DNA of 64,000 nucleotides from Natrinema marinum (GCF_024296685.1 NZ_CP100763.1:186001-250000); one strand, 5' to 3'. Counted from the first letter of the stretch, positions 28,325 to 36,063 are shown. Program-made: numbers and translations. The notes: a model not told the origin generated them from the sequence alone.

Positions 28325-30103
28325 TTACTGTCTGACCCGGAGCCGGCCGCGTTCGTCGTATCGGAAGCCGGCCTCTTCGAACGCGGCTTGCGCTGCGCTC
28401 ACGTCGACCTCACCGCCGGTTCCGAGGAACGGCACCTCGGGGTCGTTCCCATCCCACTCGAGGCTCTCCGGAACCCACTGCCGGGTGACCGGCGTGGCGA
28501 CGGGTCGTGCCTTCCCGCGGAACACGGTGTCGACCAGCCACTCCTTGTCGACCAGTTGCGCGATGACCCGGCGGAATCGCGGGTTGCTGAACGGCGCTTT
28601 CCGCGCGTTGAAGCCGAGGAAGTAGAACGTCCACGACGGGGACTCGACCAGTCGGGTGGTCTCCGTCGCCTCGACGGAATCGATGACGTCCGTCTCGAGT
28701 GCCGTACTCGTTACGTCGGCGATGCCGTCTCTGACGGCGGTCACGGCCGTCTTGCTGCTCGGAGAGATGCTGAAGGTGAACTCGTCTGCGGTCGGCGCCG
28801 GAAGGTCAACGCCGGCTCGGCGCGTGAAGTGCGTATCGAAGCGCTCGAACGTCAGCTGCTCTCCTTGCGTCCGGCCGGCGAACTGATAGGGACCGCTCCC
28901 GACCGGCGGTACGTTGTTCGCGGTGACCGCCTTCGTGGTCCCCTGTGTCATGCTGACGCCGCCCGGTCCCGTCGCGTCGGCGGCCCGCTCGCGCCAGACG
29001 TGTGCCGGGAGGATCGGAACGAGAAACGCGCGCTCGCCGACCGCACGGTTCGTGTCGACCGAGATCTCCAGTCGATTCCGGCCGCGGACGTCGACCGAGT
29101 CGACGGTTTCGACCCGTCCGCGGTACCGAGGCGTGGGGACGGCGGCGTCGTGGTTCCCGAGGGACATATCTTGCAGAAAGCGATAGGTGAACGCGATGTC
29201 GCTGGCCGTCACCGACACACCGTCGTGGAACGCACAGCCGTCGCGGAGACGCACGTCCGCCGTCCGACCGTCCCACTCCCACGATTCCGCGAGCCACGGT
29301 TCGACATCCCCGCTGGGGTCGTCGGTAGCCAGCGAATCGTAGAGCAAGTCGGTGATCAGCCCACGACCGCGGTAGCCGACTGCGAGTGGATTGAGGTTCT
29401 TCGTCGGCCTGCCGTCCGTGTGGCTCGCCCGCAGTGTATCGACGCCGACTGCCGACTCGAGGCCGAGATAGCCGCGCCGGGTCGCGAGATGATTCTCGCC
29501 CCAGCCCTCGAACCGAGCGGTCCCGACGAGTCGGTGTTCCTCCGGGACGCAGATCGGCACGAACGGCTGGACGGTCGCAATCGACTCGAGGGCCGCCGTG
29601 ACGGCCTCTCGGCGTCTCTCGCCCGAGACGCGGCGCTGTTTCTCGAGGAAGCCGTCGACGTTCAGGTTGGTGAACCCGAAGGGGTTCTGCCAGCCTGACT
29701 CGTCGGCGTACAGCGAGTGCAACGTCTCGTACAGGAAGTCGGGATCGGTGCCGCCCGGATGGCGACCGATACAGACATCGAACTCGTGGTCGTACAGTAC
29801 CGTTCGGCGAAAGTCGATACCCGACCGGATGTCGTAGGAGACGTCGATGCCGACTCGCTTGAAGACGCGCTCTAGTTCGTTGGCGATTCGAATGCTCTCT
29901 CTGTCACTATCGGCGGGGAGGGTGGTGATCGTCAGCGAGAGCTGATCGATGTTATTTCGGGTGACCAGGTCCTGAAGCCGTTGTACGCAGCCGCTCGTCG
30001 AGACGGTCAGACCGGCCGTCGCTGCCAGCATGGCGCGACGGCTGATGGAACTGCCGTCGGCGTCGCGACTGCGCCGCTTCGGTGCGGCCCGTCGTCCGTT
30101 CAT
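28325..30103 (-). CDS. family-5 solute-binding lipoprotein with permuted halves (copy 1)
   Basis: The 592-residue protein has a Tat signal and lipobox ('SISRRAMLAATAG'...'TVSTSGC'). Family SBP_bac_5 motifs are clear ('LAESWEWDGR', 'FHDGVSVTASDIAFTYRFL', 'PPVGSGPYQFAG', 'FNARKAPFSNPRFRRVIAQL'), but their order is unusual. The segment that normally closes the protein ('LSLTITTLPADSD', 'GIDVSYDI', 'DFLYETLHSLYADESGWQNP') comes first, and the chain ends at 'AAFEEAGFRYDERGRL', normally the middle. A paralogue with the same order lies at 31080. No ABC permease or ATPase gene is adjacent. It presumably binds peptides or similar solutes outside the membrane. Confidence 0.85.
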   Translation of the reverse strand: MNGRRAAPKRRSRDADGSSISRRAMLAATAGLTVSTSGCVQRLQDLVTRNNIDQLSLTITTLPADSDRESIRIANELERVFKRVGIDVSYDIRSGIDFRRTVLYDHEFDVCIGRHPGGTDPDFLYETLHSLYADESGWQNPFGFTNLNVDGFLEKQRRVSGERRREAVTAALESIATVQPFVPICVPEEHRLVGTARFEGWGENHLATRRGYLGLESAVGVDTLRASHTDGRPTKNLNPLAVGYRGRGLITDLLYDSLATDDPSGDVEPWLAESWEWDGRTADVRLRDGCAFHDGVSVTASDIAFTYRFLQDMSLGNHDAAVPTPRYRGRVETVDSVDVRGRNRLEISVDTNRAVGERAFLVPILPAHVWRERAADATGPGGVSMTQGTTKAVTANNVPPVGSGPYQFAGRTQGEQLTFERFDTHFTRRAGVDLPAPTADEFTFSISPSSKTAVTAVRDGIADVTSTALETDVIDSVEATETTRLVESPSWTFYFLGFNARKAPFSNPRFRRVIAQLVDKEWLVDTVFRGKARPVATPVTRQWVPESLEWDGNDPEVPFLGTGGEVDVSAAQAAFEEAGFRYDERGRLRVRQ

Positions 30104-30133
30104 TTGGTTCGTTTCTCACTGTTGGCCAGCCGC

Positions 30134-30153
30134 GATATAACAGTATTGTGCTC
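30134..30153 (-). promoter_or_regulatory. promoter and conserved upstream motif of solute-binding gene 1
   Basis: On the minus strand GAGCACAATACTGTTATAT places a TATA-like TTATAT about 30 bp before the ATG at 30103. It is preceded by GAGCACAATACTGT, which recurs with small changes before solute-binding gene 2 and the G8 gene. Confidence 0.55.
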
Positions 30154-30219
30154 ACGTGAGTGGTATCGTCCCCACCATCGTCGTACCGACGTCCGGGTAG
30201 CGAGGGGTTCCTTGCGGTC

Positions 30220-31074
30220 TCAGTCGTGATCGCGGTCGCGGTCCCGGAGTCGCTGATATCGGTTGCCGAACCGCTCGGAGAGCGACCAGCGGCCCACGAG
30301 CCGGTCGGAGAGTCTGACACAGAGCGCAGCGAGGAGCAATCCGGCGGTCACGTCGATCCCCCAGTGAATCCCGAGATACATCGTCGAGATCGCGACGCTC
30401 GCGGCCAGCACGACCGCGACGGGAAACCACTTCGGAAACGCGGATCGCGTCATCGCCGCGAACGTGGCCACGGTCGCCGACAGCGAGGTGTGCAACGATG
30501 GAAAGACGTTGGTGTTCGTGTTGACTTCGCGTGTGAGATACTGATACTGCGGATTGGTATCGTACAGCATCGTCGGCGCGAGCTCGGCGGGCATCACGTT
30601 CCGGGGACCGTACGCGATCACGAGGATGTACAGGACCAACCCGATCGCGTAGTTGAGCGCGTAGGCCGTCAACAGCCGACGGAAGATCCGGGTATCGGAG
30701 AGCGTAAAGTACGCGATAACCGGGAAAATCAGCAGGAACGTGTAGCCGTAGACGTAGATCATCGAGAAATACGCCGTCAGCTCGGGGGTCGCGATCGATT
30801 GGAAGAGCAGGATGAACTCCCCTTCGATGTTGTAAAACGTCGCGGTCAGGTGGATCCCGATCTCCCGCGAGATCGCCGGTGCCGTCTGCCTCGCGACTCG
30901 ATTGATCAGTAAGACGATAAGCAGGACGGCGATGACCGGCGCAGTCCTTCTGAGACGCGACCGCCACTCCGCTAGCGCTCGTGCAAAGTGCTCACGGCCG
31001 ATGAAGACGGCTACCGAGACCAGAAGCAAGACCACAGTCACGACCGCGAGCTGAATCAAAACCTCAGCGAGCAT
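30220..31074 (-). CDS. PAP2-family membrane phosphatase / inositolphosphotransferase-like
   Basis: The 284-residue protein has about seven TM helices. The catalytic motifs 'FPSLHTSLSA' (SxxH region) and 'YLGIHWGIDVTAG' (second catalytic His with downstream Asp) are those of the PAP2_3/Aur1-like branch. It should act on a lipid phosphate at the outer face of the membrane. It starts 5 bp after the solute-binding gene 2 stop, so they share a transcript, and is followed by solute-binding gene 1 with its own promoter. Confidence 0.85.
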   Translation of the reverse strand: MLAEVLIQLAVVTVVLLLVSVAVFIGREHFARALAEWRSRLRRTAPVIAVLLIVLLINRVARQTAPAISREIGIHLTATFYNIEGEFILLFQSIATPELTAYFSMIYVYGYTFLLIFPVIAYFTLSDTRIFRRLLTAYALNYAIGLVLYILVIAYGPRNVMPAELAPTMLYDTNPQYQYLTREVNTNTNVFPSLHTSLSATVATFAAMTRSAFPKWFPVAVVLAASVAISTMYLGIHWGIDVTAGLLLAALCVRLSDRLVGRWSLSERFGNRYQRLRDRDRDHD

Positions 31075-31079
31075 CGCTA

Positions 31080-32876
31080 CTAGTAGCCACCAAGCAAGCG
31101 CCCGTTATCATCGTAACGGAACCCTGCCGTCTCGAACGCCGACTTCGCCGCTTCGACGTTCAGTTCCCCGTCGGAACCGACGAACGGCGTCACCGGATCC
31201 TCGCCGTTCCACTCGAGCGAGGACGGTACCCACTCGCCGGTCACCGGCGTCGCAGTGGGCGTCGCGTTGCCGTAGAACACGTCCTCGACGATCGCTTCTT
31301 TGTCGAGCAACTGTGTGATCGCTCGCCGGAAGTGGGAGTTGCTGAAGGGGGCGTTCCGAACGTTGAAGCCGATGTGATAGAACATCCGTGACGGCGATTC
31401 TAGTCGCTCGATGGCCGACGAATCGGGGATCGTTCCCAGCGAGTGGGCCCCGAGTACCGACGCCGTCAGATCGGCGTCGCCGTCCGCGACGCGATCGATC
31501 GACGAGACGCTGCCGGGATCGACGGAAAATCGGAGTTCGTCGACGGTCGGTCCGGGTAGCGACACGTCCTCTCGGAGCGTGAAGTGGTCCTCGAATCGTC
31601 GGAGGACGAGCGACTCGTCTTCGGTCCTGGTTTCGAATCGGTAGGGGCCGCTTCCCACGGGTGGAACGTTGTTCGAAGTGACGACGCTCCAGCGTCCCTG
31701 CGGGGCAGTAAAGTCGCCCGTAGCAGCGTGTTGATCGACCCGCTTTCGCCAGACGTGCTCCGGCAGGATCGGAACGGTAAATACGCGCTCGCCGACCTCG
31801 CGGTTGCTCGTTACGGTGATCGACAGCCGGCGGTCGTCCTCGACGTCGATGCCGTCGACGATTCCGACGTGTCCTCGGTACTGTGGTGATGGAGAGGGGA
31901 CGTGGGCCCGTCCCAGCGACGTATCCCTGAGGAATCGGTACGTGAAGGCGACATCGTCGGCAGTTACCGGCGTTCCGTCGTGGAACCGACAGTCCTCTCG
32001 GAGGGTAACCGTCGCCGTCCGTTTCGCCGTCGCGTCGCCGCTCGTCTTTTCGTCCGTGGGCTTGTTGGCCCACTCCCACGATTCCGCGAGCCACGGCTCG
32101 ACGGTGCCATCGCGTTCGCTTCCCAGCGAGTCGTAGAGCAGGTCGATCGTCGTGCCCTGCTTCCGGAACGTCGCCGAAAGCGGATTGAGGTTCATCGTCG
32201 TGCGGCCGCTGGTCAGGAGGGCGCGCAACTGGTCGACGCCGTCGGCGGGCTCGAGGCCGAGATAGCCGTGTCGAGTCGCGAGGTCGCCGTCGCTCCAGCC
32301 GTCGAACCGATCCGCGTCGGCGACCCGGGTTTCGTCCGGGAGGCAGATCGGTTCGAACGGTTTGGCCTGTGCCAGTCCTCGGAGGACCGACTGGACGTGG
32401 TCGATTCGCTCGGTGCCGTCAGTACGCCGCTGGGCCTCGAGGCGGGTATCGAAGGCCATGTTGGTGAACCCGAAGGGGTTCTGCCAACCGGCCTCGCTCG
32501 CGTACGTGGAGTGGAGGGCCTCGTAGAGGAAGTCCGGGTCGTAGTCGGCGGGGTGAAGGCCGACGTACAGGTCGAAGTCCTGGTTGATCAGGACCGTCTC
32601 CAGGAGCTCCGACCGCGACCGCATATCCAGCGTCACGTCGATGCCGACCTGCTCGAGCCGTTGCTCGAGTCGGCGGGCGATGCGGACGTTCTGTCTGTCC
32701 GCGTCCGCTGGAACGGTGGTGATGGACAGCGAGAGTTGATTGTATCCGCTCTGGTCGACGACGCTTCGGACGCTATCGATACAGCCGCTGGTCGCGACTG
32801 TCGCGCCGGCGGCACCGGCAGCGAGGAACGAGCGTCTGCTGACGCCGTCTGAAGGCGGGGAGAGGTTCCAATTCAT
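31080..32876 (-). CDS. family-5 solute-binding lipoprotein with permuted halves (copy 2)
   Basis: The 598-residue paralogue of 28325-30103 has the same order of segments. Lipobox 'ATVATSGC', then what is usually the C-terminal half ('LSLSITTVPADADRQNV', 'GIDVTLDMRS', 'DPDFLYEALHSTYASEAGW'), then the usual N-terminal half ('LAESWEWANK', 'FHDGTPVTADDVAFTYRF', 'PPVGSGPYRFE'), ending 'AFETAGFRYDDNGRL'. First gene of the unit with the PAP2 phosphatase; no transporter genes nearby. The ligand is unknown. Confidence 0.85.
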   Translation of the reverse strand: MNWNLSPPSDGVSRRSFLAAGAAGATVATSGCIDSVRSVVDQSGYNQLSLSITTVPADADRQNVRIARRLEQRLEQVGIDVTLDMRSRSELLETVLINQDFDLYVGLHPADYDPDFLYEALHSTYASEAGWQNPFGFTNMAFDTRLEAQRRTDGTERIDHVQSVLRGLAQAKPFEPICLPDETRVADADRFDGWSDGDLATRHGYLGLEPADGVDQLRALLTSGRTTMNLNPLSATFRKQGTTIDLLYDSLGSERDGTVEPWLAESWEWANKPTDEKTSGDATAKRTATVTLREDCRFHDGTPVTADDVAFTYRFLRDTSLGRAHVPSPSPQYRGHVGIVDGIDVEDDRRLSITVTSNREVGERVFTVPILPEHVWRKRVDQHAATGDFTAPQGRWSVVTSNNVPPVGSGPYRFETRTEDESLVLRRFEDHFTLREDVSLPGPTVDELRFSVDPGSVSSIDRVADGDADLTASVLGAHSLGTIPDSSAIERLESPSRMFYHIGFNVRNAPFSNSHFRRAITQLLDKEAIVEDVFYGNATPTATPVTGEWVPSSLEWNGEDPVTPFVGSDGELNVEAAKSAFETAGFRYDDNGRLLGGY

Positions 32877-32924: not shown

Positions 32925-33082
32925 TCTGTTCGAATACGGGGCGGGGTAAAGAATCTTTTCAAACGGCGGTACATTCGCCACAGGTGAAGGCTTGTCGTAC
33001 CGGCGTGAGGGCTGCGAACCGCCGACGGCCGTCCCGTCCCCGGAGCGCAACACCAATAGGTCGACCGACGAAACAGGGACGT

Positions 33083-33361
33083 ATGGAGCTCGCCGCCGAA
33101 CGGCTCGAGCGGCTTCACGACCTCGCTCGAGCGGCGGCAGCGGACGGGGAAGACGACCGGGCGCGCTACTACGTGCGGCTGGCGCGACGGGTCGCAGAGC
33201 GGAACCGACTGACGCTGCCGCGGGAGTTCCGGCGCTTTACCTGCGATCGGTGCGACGCGTACCTTCGGCCGGGGGCGAACGCTCGCGTTAGATTACAGGA
33301 CGGTCACGTGGTGATCACCTGCGACTGCGGCGCTCACGCCAGATATCCCTACGAGGAGTGA
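33083..33361 (+). CDS. rnp4: ribonuclease P protein component 4 (Rpr2/Rnp21)
   Basis: The 92-residue protein starts at ATG 33083. An N-terminal helical pair ('RLERLHDLARAAAADGEDD') is followed by 'LPREFRRFTCDRCDAYLRPG' and 'VVITCDCGAHARYPYEE', giving zinc ligands C-x2-C and C-x-C as in archaeal RNase P component 4. It helps RNase P process the 5' ends of tRNAs. It is followed 92 bp later by the YhbY gene. Confidence 0.93.
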   Translation: MELAAERLERLHDLARAAAADGEDDRARYYVRLARRVAERNRLTLPREFRRFTCDRCDAYLRPGANARVRLQDGHVVITCDCGAHARYPYEE

Positions 33362-33453
33362 TCGCCGGCCAGCGGCCCACCTTGAGACACTCGTCGGGAC
33401 TGTCGAATTCCGATTCGAGAAGATTGAAACGCCTCGCTTCGTTATGCAGCGCC

Positions 33454-33702
33454 ATGGATAAACAGGACCTCAAGCAGCGGGCACACGACCTCGACGTCAC
33501 CGTCTGGGTCGGGAAGAGCGGCGTCGACGCCGTCGTCGACGAACTCGACGATCAGCTCGCGAACCGCGACCTCGTCAAGGTGAAGTTCCTCCGCGCCGCT
33601 CGAGCGGGGAGTTCGACCGACGAGAAGGCGGCCGACCTCGCCGACCGCGTCAACGCAGAACTGATCGACACGCGTGGGCATACGGCGGTGGTACATCGAT
33701 GA
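33454..33702 (+). CDS. YhbY/CRM-domain RNA-binding protein
   Basis: The 82-residue protein has the CRM fold motifs: 'VWVGKSGVDAVVDELDDQL' (a GKxG-like loop) and 'LVKVKFLRAARAGS'. It should bind structured RNA such as pre-rRNA or tRNA precursors. The stop overlaps the MscS start by 4 bp (ATGA), and the RNase P subunit gene is just upstream, a common haloarchaeal cluster. Confidence 0.92.
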   Translation: MDKQDLKQRAHDLDVTVWVGKSGVDAVVDELDDQLANRDLVKVKFLRAARAGSSTDEKAADLADRVNAELIDTRGHTAVVHR

Positions 33703-34622
33703 GCGGCGGAGCCGGTCTGCTCCCGTTACAGGCGCTCGGTCCGATCGGCCGCACGCTGGAAGAAGCCGGCCTCAGTTCGGCTCTCGCCGCGAGCGCAGAG
33801 AGCGCGATCAAGTTCGTCATCGCGTTCGTCGTCATCTGGCTCGTCGGCCGGGCGATCGTGCGACCGCTGGTCAAACGGGCGTTCGACAAGCGGGGCCTCG
33901 ACGAGCACGTCCAGAACCCGCTGTTGATGCTGACGAACTTCGGGATCGTGTTCGTCGCGATCGCGATCGCCTTCGGCTTCGCCGACTACGGGAACTTCCT
34001 CGTCTCGATGGCCGGCATCGCGGCGGCGGGCGCACTCGCCGTCGGACTGGCGATGCAAAACGTGATCTCGAACTTCGTCGCCGGCGTCTTCATCTACACG
34101 GACAAACCGTTCCGCATCGGCGACTGGATCGAGTGGGAAAACGGTACCTACGCGGGCACCGTCGAGGACATCAGCCTCCGCGTCACCCGCGTCAGGACCT
34201 TCGACAACGAACTGCTGACGGTGCCGAACTCGGCGCTCACGGACGGTGTCCTCAAGAACCCGGTCGACGCCGACAAGCTGCGACTGAAGTTTGTCTTCGG
34301 GATCGGCTACGACGACGACATCCAGCGGGCGACCGACATCATCGTCGAGGAGGCCGAACGCCACCCCGACATCATGGACGACCCCGCACCGTCCGTCCGG
34401 CTGACCGAACTCGGCTCCTCCGACGTCGGCCTCCAGTCGCGGTTCTGGATCGAGAACCCCTCGCGCGCGGACTTCGTCCGAACCCGCGGCGAGTACGTCA
34501 CCGCGGTCAAAGGACGCTTCGACGAGGAGGGGATCGACATCCCCTACCCCGTTCGCACGCTCGAGGGCGGCCTCAACATCGAGAGCGGCGACGGTCAGAG
34601 CGTCGTCCAGCCGGCCGAATAG
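33699..34622 (+). CDS. MscS-family mechanosensitive channel
   Basis: The 307-residue protein has about three TM helices. The pore helix is Gly/Ala-rich ('GIAAAGALAVGLAMQNVISN'), followed by 'FVAGVFIYTDKPFRIGDWIE' in the beta domain and 'VPNSALTDGVLKNP'. This matches MscS. It should release solutes upon osmotic downshift. Translationally coupled to the YhbY gene. Confidence 0.92.
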   Translation: MSGGAGLLPLQALGPIGRTLEEAGLSSALAASAESAIKFVIAFVVIWLVGRAIVRPLVKRAFDKRGLDEHVQNPLLMLTNFGIVFVAIAIAFGFADYGNFLVSMAGIAAAGALAVGLAMQNVISNFVAGVFIYTDKPFRIGDWIEWENGTYAGTVEDISLRVTRVRTFDNELLTVPNSALTDGVLKNPVDADKLRLKFVFGIGYDDDIQRATDIIVEEAERHPDIMDDPAPSVRLTELGSSDVGLQSRFWIENPSRADFVRTRGEYVTAVKGRFDEEGIDIPYPVRTLEGGLNIESGDGQSVVQPAE

Positions 34623-35745: not shown

Positions 35746-36063
35746 AAGATCGGTATGAATGCGGACGACCGCGGTGGCCCGGCGTTCCGGCCGGGGGAAT
35801 CCCGGTTGCCTTCTCCACCCCGCGACCCGTCGAGCGACAGGTGTCCGGCGGTCCACTGCTCGCTTCCGCGCCTGATGGGCTGTCGCCGACTAACCACGAT
35901 GGGGCGTCCCTGCGGACGGCCATCGTGGACCGCTGTCCCCGACGGACGAGGCTTCTCTGTTGGCTCCCGGGGCCCCGGTCGGTCTGACCGGACGCCCGCG
36001 GGATTCGGTCCCCGCTAATGACCATAGCGCGGGTGACGAGCAGGGCCAAACTGCCCGACCTAG
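35746..36063 (-). ncRNA. ffs: signal recognition particle RNA (7S RNA)
   Basis: The minus strand carries the helix-8 signature CAGGCGCGGAAGCGAGCAG (35853-35874 region), matching the SRP consensus CAGG..CGGAAG..AGCAG, inside a long GC-rich rod, with GGGTGGAGAAGGCAACC nearby. The 5' AGGTCGG (36061-36055) pairs with the 3' CCGATCT (35753-35747), forming archaeal helix 1, which sets ends near 36063 and 35746 (~318 nt, the normal archaeal length). A TATA-like CCTTAAG (36089-36095) lies ~27 bp upstream, and TTT follows the 3' end. It targets secretory and membrane proteins with SRP19/SRP54. Confidence 0.93.

Follow-up and report, generated by a model that had tools for sequence, protein, structure and literature searches.

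Recurrent circular permutation in family-5 solute-binding proteins, with a haloarchaeal branch encoded next to a PAP2-superfamily phosphatase

The window analyzed here is a 64,000-nucleotide stretch of the Natrinema marinum genome (NZ_CP100763.1:186001-250000). Two ORFs for family-5 solute-binding proteins (SBP5) were located in the window at the positions at which a preliminary description of this DNA had placed them, and a membrane phosphatase gene lies between the two. The features of the locus, with the evidence for each, are as follows.

31080-32876, minus strand: permuted SBP5 gene 2, 598 aa, in the order signal peptide/lipobox, C-half, N-half (ORF, Pfam, alignment, AlphaFold)
32781-32876, minus strand: gene 2 signal peptide, with the twin-arginine motif SRRSFL and a lipobox to Cys32 (sequence)
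32250-32738, minus strand: canonical C-terminal part of gene 2, with LSLSITT..., DPDFLYE, and WQNPFGF (C-half profile, PF00496 272-360, alignment)
31083-32237, minus strand: canonical N-terminal part of gene 2, with AAKSAFETAGFRYDDNGRLL as its last helix (PF00496 1-284, cut map)
30220-31074, minus strand: PAP2-superfamily membrane phosphatase, 284 aa (PF14378, PF01569, invariant motifs, linkage, predicted fold)
28325-30103, minus strand: permuted SBP5 gene 1, 592 aa, with the architecture of gene 2 (ORF, Pfam, alignment)
29456-29944, minus strand: canonical C-terminal part of gene 1, now first (alignment to gene 2)
28328-29443, minus strand: canonical N-terminal part of gene 1, now last (PF00496 2-281)

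The two SBPs were 53% identical along their entire length in an alignment of 43 sequences. In the case of the gene 2 export signal, the matches to PF10518 and TIGR01409 were weak and the formal TAT scores fell under the cut-off; the twin-arginine plus lipobox pattern of an SBP5 export signal was present, and its Cys was invariant in the alignment. The genes at 32984-34622, which we take to encode a protein component of RNase P, an RNA-binding protein of the YhbY type, and an MscS channel, adjoin the SBP-PAP2 cluster in unchanged order at many loci of Natrialbaceae. An archaeal SRP RNA gene was found at 35759-36000 on the minus strand, running on beyond 36000 (Rfam RF01857, 133 bits).

The preliminary description had proposed that the halves of both neighboring proteins are exchanged, and Pfam, an alignment to a solved structure, the 43-sequence alignment, and half-profiles agreed on this point. 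Specifically, PF00496 matched both proteins (164.3 and 173.6 bits, with a curated cut-off of 32.4), and the match to each was split into two stretches. In both proteins, the C-terminal 60% of the chain corresponded to the N-terminal part of the model (from position 1-2 to 281-284), the N-terminal model part of the NCBIfam family-5 profiles likewise fell on the C-terminal 60% of both, and model positions 272-360 of PF00496 aligned upstream of the N-half match in gene 2. With 5isu, the best solved structure, residues 53-295 of the chain paired with query residues 266-537, whereas residues 326-467 paired with query residues 35-179; that is, the order was exchanged. All 43 aligned sequences ran from a TAT motif and lipobox Cys through the C-half and the N-half to an AGYxYD..GRL end, with near-complete or complete invariance of the Cys of the lipobox and of a GWQNPF motif.

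Separate N-half and C-half profiles were made from 31 canonical euryarchaeal proteins. Across all loci retrieved, they placed the C-half before the N-half in 106 ORFs and the N-half before the C-half in 51; the C-half of gene 1 by itself scored under the half-profile threshold. When the halves of gene 2 were exchanged in silico, the best single-domain score against a canonical profile rose from 104 bits for the native order to 139 bits, and the profile coverage went from 58-364 to 58-510. The canonical controls behaved as expected. A co-linear alignment to canonical proteins, which according to the preliminary description would speak against a permutation, was looked for, and the alignments obtained were not co-linear. 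Because the order of the halves departed from co-linearity by Pfam, PDB alignment, half-profiles, and half exchange, we filed the window proteins as a permuted SBP5 variant rather than as canonical members of the family. These results confirmed that both are circularly permuted family-5 SBPs (PF00496) with the C-terminal part ahead of the N-terminal part. A gene-model error, already discounted in the preliminary description, and an assembly error were ruled out because the exchanged order recurs in dozens of genomes.

AlphaFold, run on gene 2 with the 43-sequence alignment, gave a single confident fold (mean pLDDT 88.8, pTM 0.87) in which residues 1-12 of the mature chain had low confidence. 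SBP5 structures were the top Foldseek matches of this model in the PDB and place it in the SBP5 fold, with a partial in-order alignment (about 400 of 567 columns, TM 0.4-0.5). A partial in-order match is what a sequential aligner would be expected to return for a permuted chain, and alone it would be no proof of the topology of the model. No permuted SBP5 structure was among the PDB matches listed, no NCBIfam model for the permuted form was found, and a search for phage carriage gave no match covering 80% of the query.

Canonical SBP5 proteins of cluster C (OppA, DppA, AppA, and NikA) are homologous to the permuted proteins in both halves, their structures match the predicted fold, and their dppBCDF linkage is shared by most permuted groups. 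The permuted proteins differ from them in the exchanged halves, in new termini located in lobe II, and, in the branch that holds the window pair (clade A), in a PAP2 gene that replaces the transporter. The closest described case, and the sole natural permuted SBP that we found described, was Tp0684 (TpMglB-2), a type I lipoprotein that binds glucose and is circularly permuted, termed Type Ic or Cluster Bc (PMC4990184). Like the permuted SBP5 proteins, Tp0684 is a natural circularly permuted ABC-type binding lipoprotein. In contrast to them, it is a cluster B (type I) protein and so of another SBP class, is cut in the N-lobe, has an extra hinge crossing, and comes from one described lineage. 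The sequence and fold matches of the window proteins were to family 5 and not to Type Ic/Cluster Bc. The preliminary description knew of no such permutation in family 5, and our search of open, non-subscription papers likewise found none. The degree to which the permutation recurs is unusual.

Three points were absent from the preliminary description: the coupled PAP2 gene, the wide spread of the permuted form, and its several origins. A scan of GTDB species genomes for the window pair returned 51 clade A loci, all haloarchaeal and 34-72% identical. Forty-nine of these were full-length open frames with the architecture of the window pair, and the two exceptions were a frame-broken copy (L050) and a copy truncated at the end of a contig (L055). 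When 147 genomes were drawn evenly from the order, 120 of them had a match at E<=1e-10, the weaker matches being other permuted groups or canonical proteins.

The window PAP2 gene starts 5 bp past the gene 2 stop. Its product matched PF14378 (57.2 bits) and PF01569 (45.7 bits), both above the cut-off, and carried the motifs YGPRN, FPSLHTS, and YLGIHWGIDV. The catalytic motifs C2 (P-S-x-H) and C3 (H-x3-D) were invariant in 37 sequences, and the folds nearest to the predicted model (pLDDT 89.6) were inositol phosphorylceramide synthase and Aur1, followed by bacterial PAP2 enzymes. Catalytic motifs and fold thus place the product of 30220-31074 in the PAP2 superfamily. The PSLH motif and predicted fold are common to this protein and Aur1/inositol phosphorylceramide synthase (PAP2_3), whereas the window protein is archaeal and coupled to a permuted SBP. 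A PAP2 gene was the next downstream gene at 83 clade A places (some loci overlap), and the gap from SBP to PAP2 was -4 to +27 bp in 74 of the 83. Places without a downstream PAP2 gene held the trailing copy of an SBP-PAP2-SBP row, as in the window, or a locus end. This tightly coupled operon spanned several haloarchaeal families, in most cases with a start and stop that overlap or abut, and no dppBCDF set adjoined the window pair or any clade A gene at the loci read. The SBP-PAP2 module, conserved in haloarchaea as a gene pair, has a putative role at the cell surface. The window genome has one more PAP2 paralogue (L189, G000:C1:2906358-2907125), which was 42% identical to the window PAP2. At L054 (7701-8678), PAP2 was matched in two overlapping frames, which suggests a frameshift.

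Permuted SBP5 proteins are widespread and occur in haloarchaea, another euryarchaeal family, and alphaproteobacteria. The window genome itself has at least four SBP5 genes, three of which are permuted. The third (group B; L058 6858-8504) is the first gene of its own dppBCDF operon; beyond the genus, the relatives nearest to it were 38-45% identical and had the canonical order. Group C proteins, about 26-30% identical to those of clade A and group B, are encoded at the head of a dppBCDF operon at the majority of the haloarchaeal loci read. Plasmid-borne permuted relatives were found in Ketogulonicigenium, Nitratireductor, Microvirga, Neorhizobium, Roseomonas, and Maritalea. Where annotated, the alphaproteobacterial genes adjoin those of ABC permeases and ATPases, and most also have M28 peptidase and hydantoinase/oxoprolinase genes nearby; the proteins appear to be soluble, periplasmic, and devoid of a lipobox. 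In group-C-type permuted operons of alphaproteobacteria and Natrialba (L177, L178, L180, L181, and L182), M28 peptidase genes were regular neighbors, and several of the bacterial operons also adjoined hydantoinase/oxoprolinase genes, hinting at peptides or oxoproline as substrates of group-C-type SBPs.

The remaining groups had close canonical relatives. Group D (L075, L077, L082, L083, and near copies) is permuted and haloarchaeal, whereas L076 and L089, sisters of this group, have the canonical order. In exchanged order, each half of L075 was 63-65% identical to L076/L089, the signal peptide was unmoved and still N-terminal despite the half exchange, and the adjoining dppB, C, D, and F were 72-80% identical to those of the canonical sisters. 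In group E (L194-L196), from the other euryarchaeal family, the halves were 86% and 83% identical to the congeneric canonical protein L100, and the DNA was about 80% identical with two blocks exchanged; this permutation is very recent. One further protein of the same family, F (L197), is permuted and kept a C-terminal membrane anchor. In groups B, C, D, and E, the SBP genes adjoin dppBCDF, in contrast to the window pair and the rest of clade A, which have PAP2 there. Permuted and canonical SBPs were shown to adjoin orthologous dppBCDF transporters.

Nearly all cuts mapped to the loop between an A-x-x-L-L-x-x-A-G-Y helix and the next strand, which is 4 to 20 residues long in canonical proteins; the group B cut lies just before this helix. 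As positions in the Pfam model, the cuts were at about 281-285 in A, C, and the bacterial proteins, at 275 in D, and at 257 in B. In OppA and DppA, the natural N and C termini are both in lobe I. The ancestral order of signal, N-half, and C-half most probably became signal, C-half, and N-half when the natural termini in lobe I were joined and the chain was opened in lobe II, within the variable loop that follows the A-x-x-L-L-x-x-A-G-Y helix of that lobe. The permuted proteins probably keep both fold and ligand binding. The change may have come about by tandem gene duplication and fusion followed by loss of the outer halves, a route proposed here although a tandem duplication was seen in no permuted lineage itself. 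The same general route is known for permutation via duplication in saposin/swaposin and DNA methyltransferases (PMC3320104). The SBP5 case differs from these in that the protein permuted is the binding protein of a transporter and the permutation arose several times at a single loop. At L172 (2310-5387, G227:C18), a 1026-aa open frame carries two full SBP5 proteins in head-to-tail arrangement (N-C-N-C), with dppB, dppC, and dppD coming next and then the locus end. L172 demonstrates that SBP5 genes can occur fused in tandem, which the duplication route needs, and represents a possible type of intermediate, not shown to be ancestral.

IQ-TREE trees on relinearized sequences indicated how often the permutation arose. 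Clade A, group C, and the alphaproteobacterial proteins formed one group (support of 100/99 and 100/100 in two trees), groups B, D, E, and F fell among canonical proteins, and one tree required at least six changes of state. A single clade of all permuted proteins was rejected by the AU test (p=1.7e-84), which rules out a single origin; B with D (p=4.5e-4) and E with F (p=3.7e-5) were also rejected, and group D may have arisen once or twice (p=0.16 for a single origin). Because the trees and AU tests keep the permuted groups apart, at least five separate origins were shown, a minimum under the models used: the clade of A, C, and the alphaproteobacterial proteins; group B; group D; group E; and F, the last counted from one genome only.

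Two other histories would account for the exchanged order without recurrent permutation, and both are very improbable. The fact that the majority of cuts lie in the same loop would fit a single ancient permutation, in which case the canonical relatives of B, D, and E would have been permuted a second time, back to the original order, or would be wrongly placed in the tree, but the AU test rejected one clade, the groups differ in cut position, and group E is still 83-86% identical to its canonical congeners. Just as hard to sustain is the idea that the proteins join halves of two different SBPs or are artefacts of the gene models or the assembly. The low identity of the halves in the deep clade of A, C, and bacteria to a canonical protein (about 23-29%) would allow fusion; against it, both halves in D and E are equally near the same canonical sister, and dozens of genomes from two domains of life share the order. 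As for what drove repeated permutation, selection could have acted because an N-terminal lipid anchor moves from lobe I to lobe II, an idea raised earlier for Tp0684 (PMC4990184). The lipobox at the new N terminus of haloarchaeal and group E members is consistent with it. However, the soluble, lipobox-free alphaproteobacterial proteins and the C-terminal anchor of F mean that anchoring cannot account for all cases, so that anchor repositioning is weakened as a general cause and is an unlikely one.

Known bacterial PAP2 enzymes have an active site that faces outside, and the clade A SBP would be a lipid-anchored, outside-facing binding protein with no adjoining transporter. Because the two would lie on the same side of the membrane, we propose the SBP as the binding subunit of PAP2. 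It may capture or sense a ligand and then feed or regulate PAP2 at the outer membrane face, akin to a non-transport SBP-like lipoprotein, a suggestion that we draw tentatively from the gene coupling. That coupling could also reflect shared regulation only. Somewhat less probable is that clade A SBPs are ordinary importer subunits of a dppBCDF transporter encoded elsewhere, with PAP2 as a passenger. Relatives in groups B, C, D, and E adjoin dppBCDF genes, and the window genome has two dppBCDF-type sets elsewhere (L057 and L058), each with its own SBP. Nevertheless, no clade A gene has a dppBCDF set beside it, and PAP2 is directly downstream at every clade A locus with readable downstream DNA, save for the trailing SBP copies of SBP-PAP2-SBP rows.

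LpqW, which has an SBP5-like fold, offers a possible analogue of the proposed PAP2-linked role. It is a mycobacterial lipoprotein that steers PIM/LAM lipoglycan synthesis (PMC7502851). Like the clade A SBP as proposed, LpqW acts on membrane lipid synthesis and not in transport; its partners are mannosyltransferases rather than PAP2. Permutation within SBP5, with its spread, its origins, and the coupling of clade A to PAP2, is very probably the best joint explanation of these data. The fullest version is a more speculative one, which we would still put behind its alternatives taken together: SBP5 would be a hot spot of natural permutation, with at least five origins at one loop and, within a single genus, a case close to the present, and one branch would have become the ligand-sensing, lipid-anchored subunit of a two-part SBP-PAP2 system by which haloarchaea control the chemistry of membrane lipids or of lipid-linked glycans.

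As a rule, circular permutations in nature are inferred from comparisons of distantly related proteins. In the present case, one half-exchanged pair was about 85% identical and another lay beside transporters that were 72-80% identical, and such close pairs therefore make it directly testable how chain order affects folding, export, and docking to the transporter. The permuted genes were annotated merely as ABC transporter substrate-binding proteins, and because the annotation says no more than this, the half exchange goes unnoticed. Among the loci retrieved was also a 1521-aa open frame (L176 1516-6078, G163:C1), the C-terminal two thirds of which is an SBP5 protein in canonical order.
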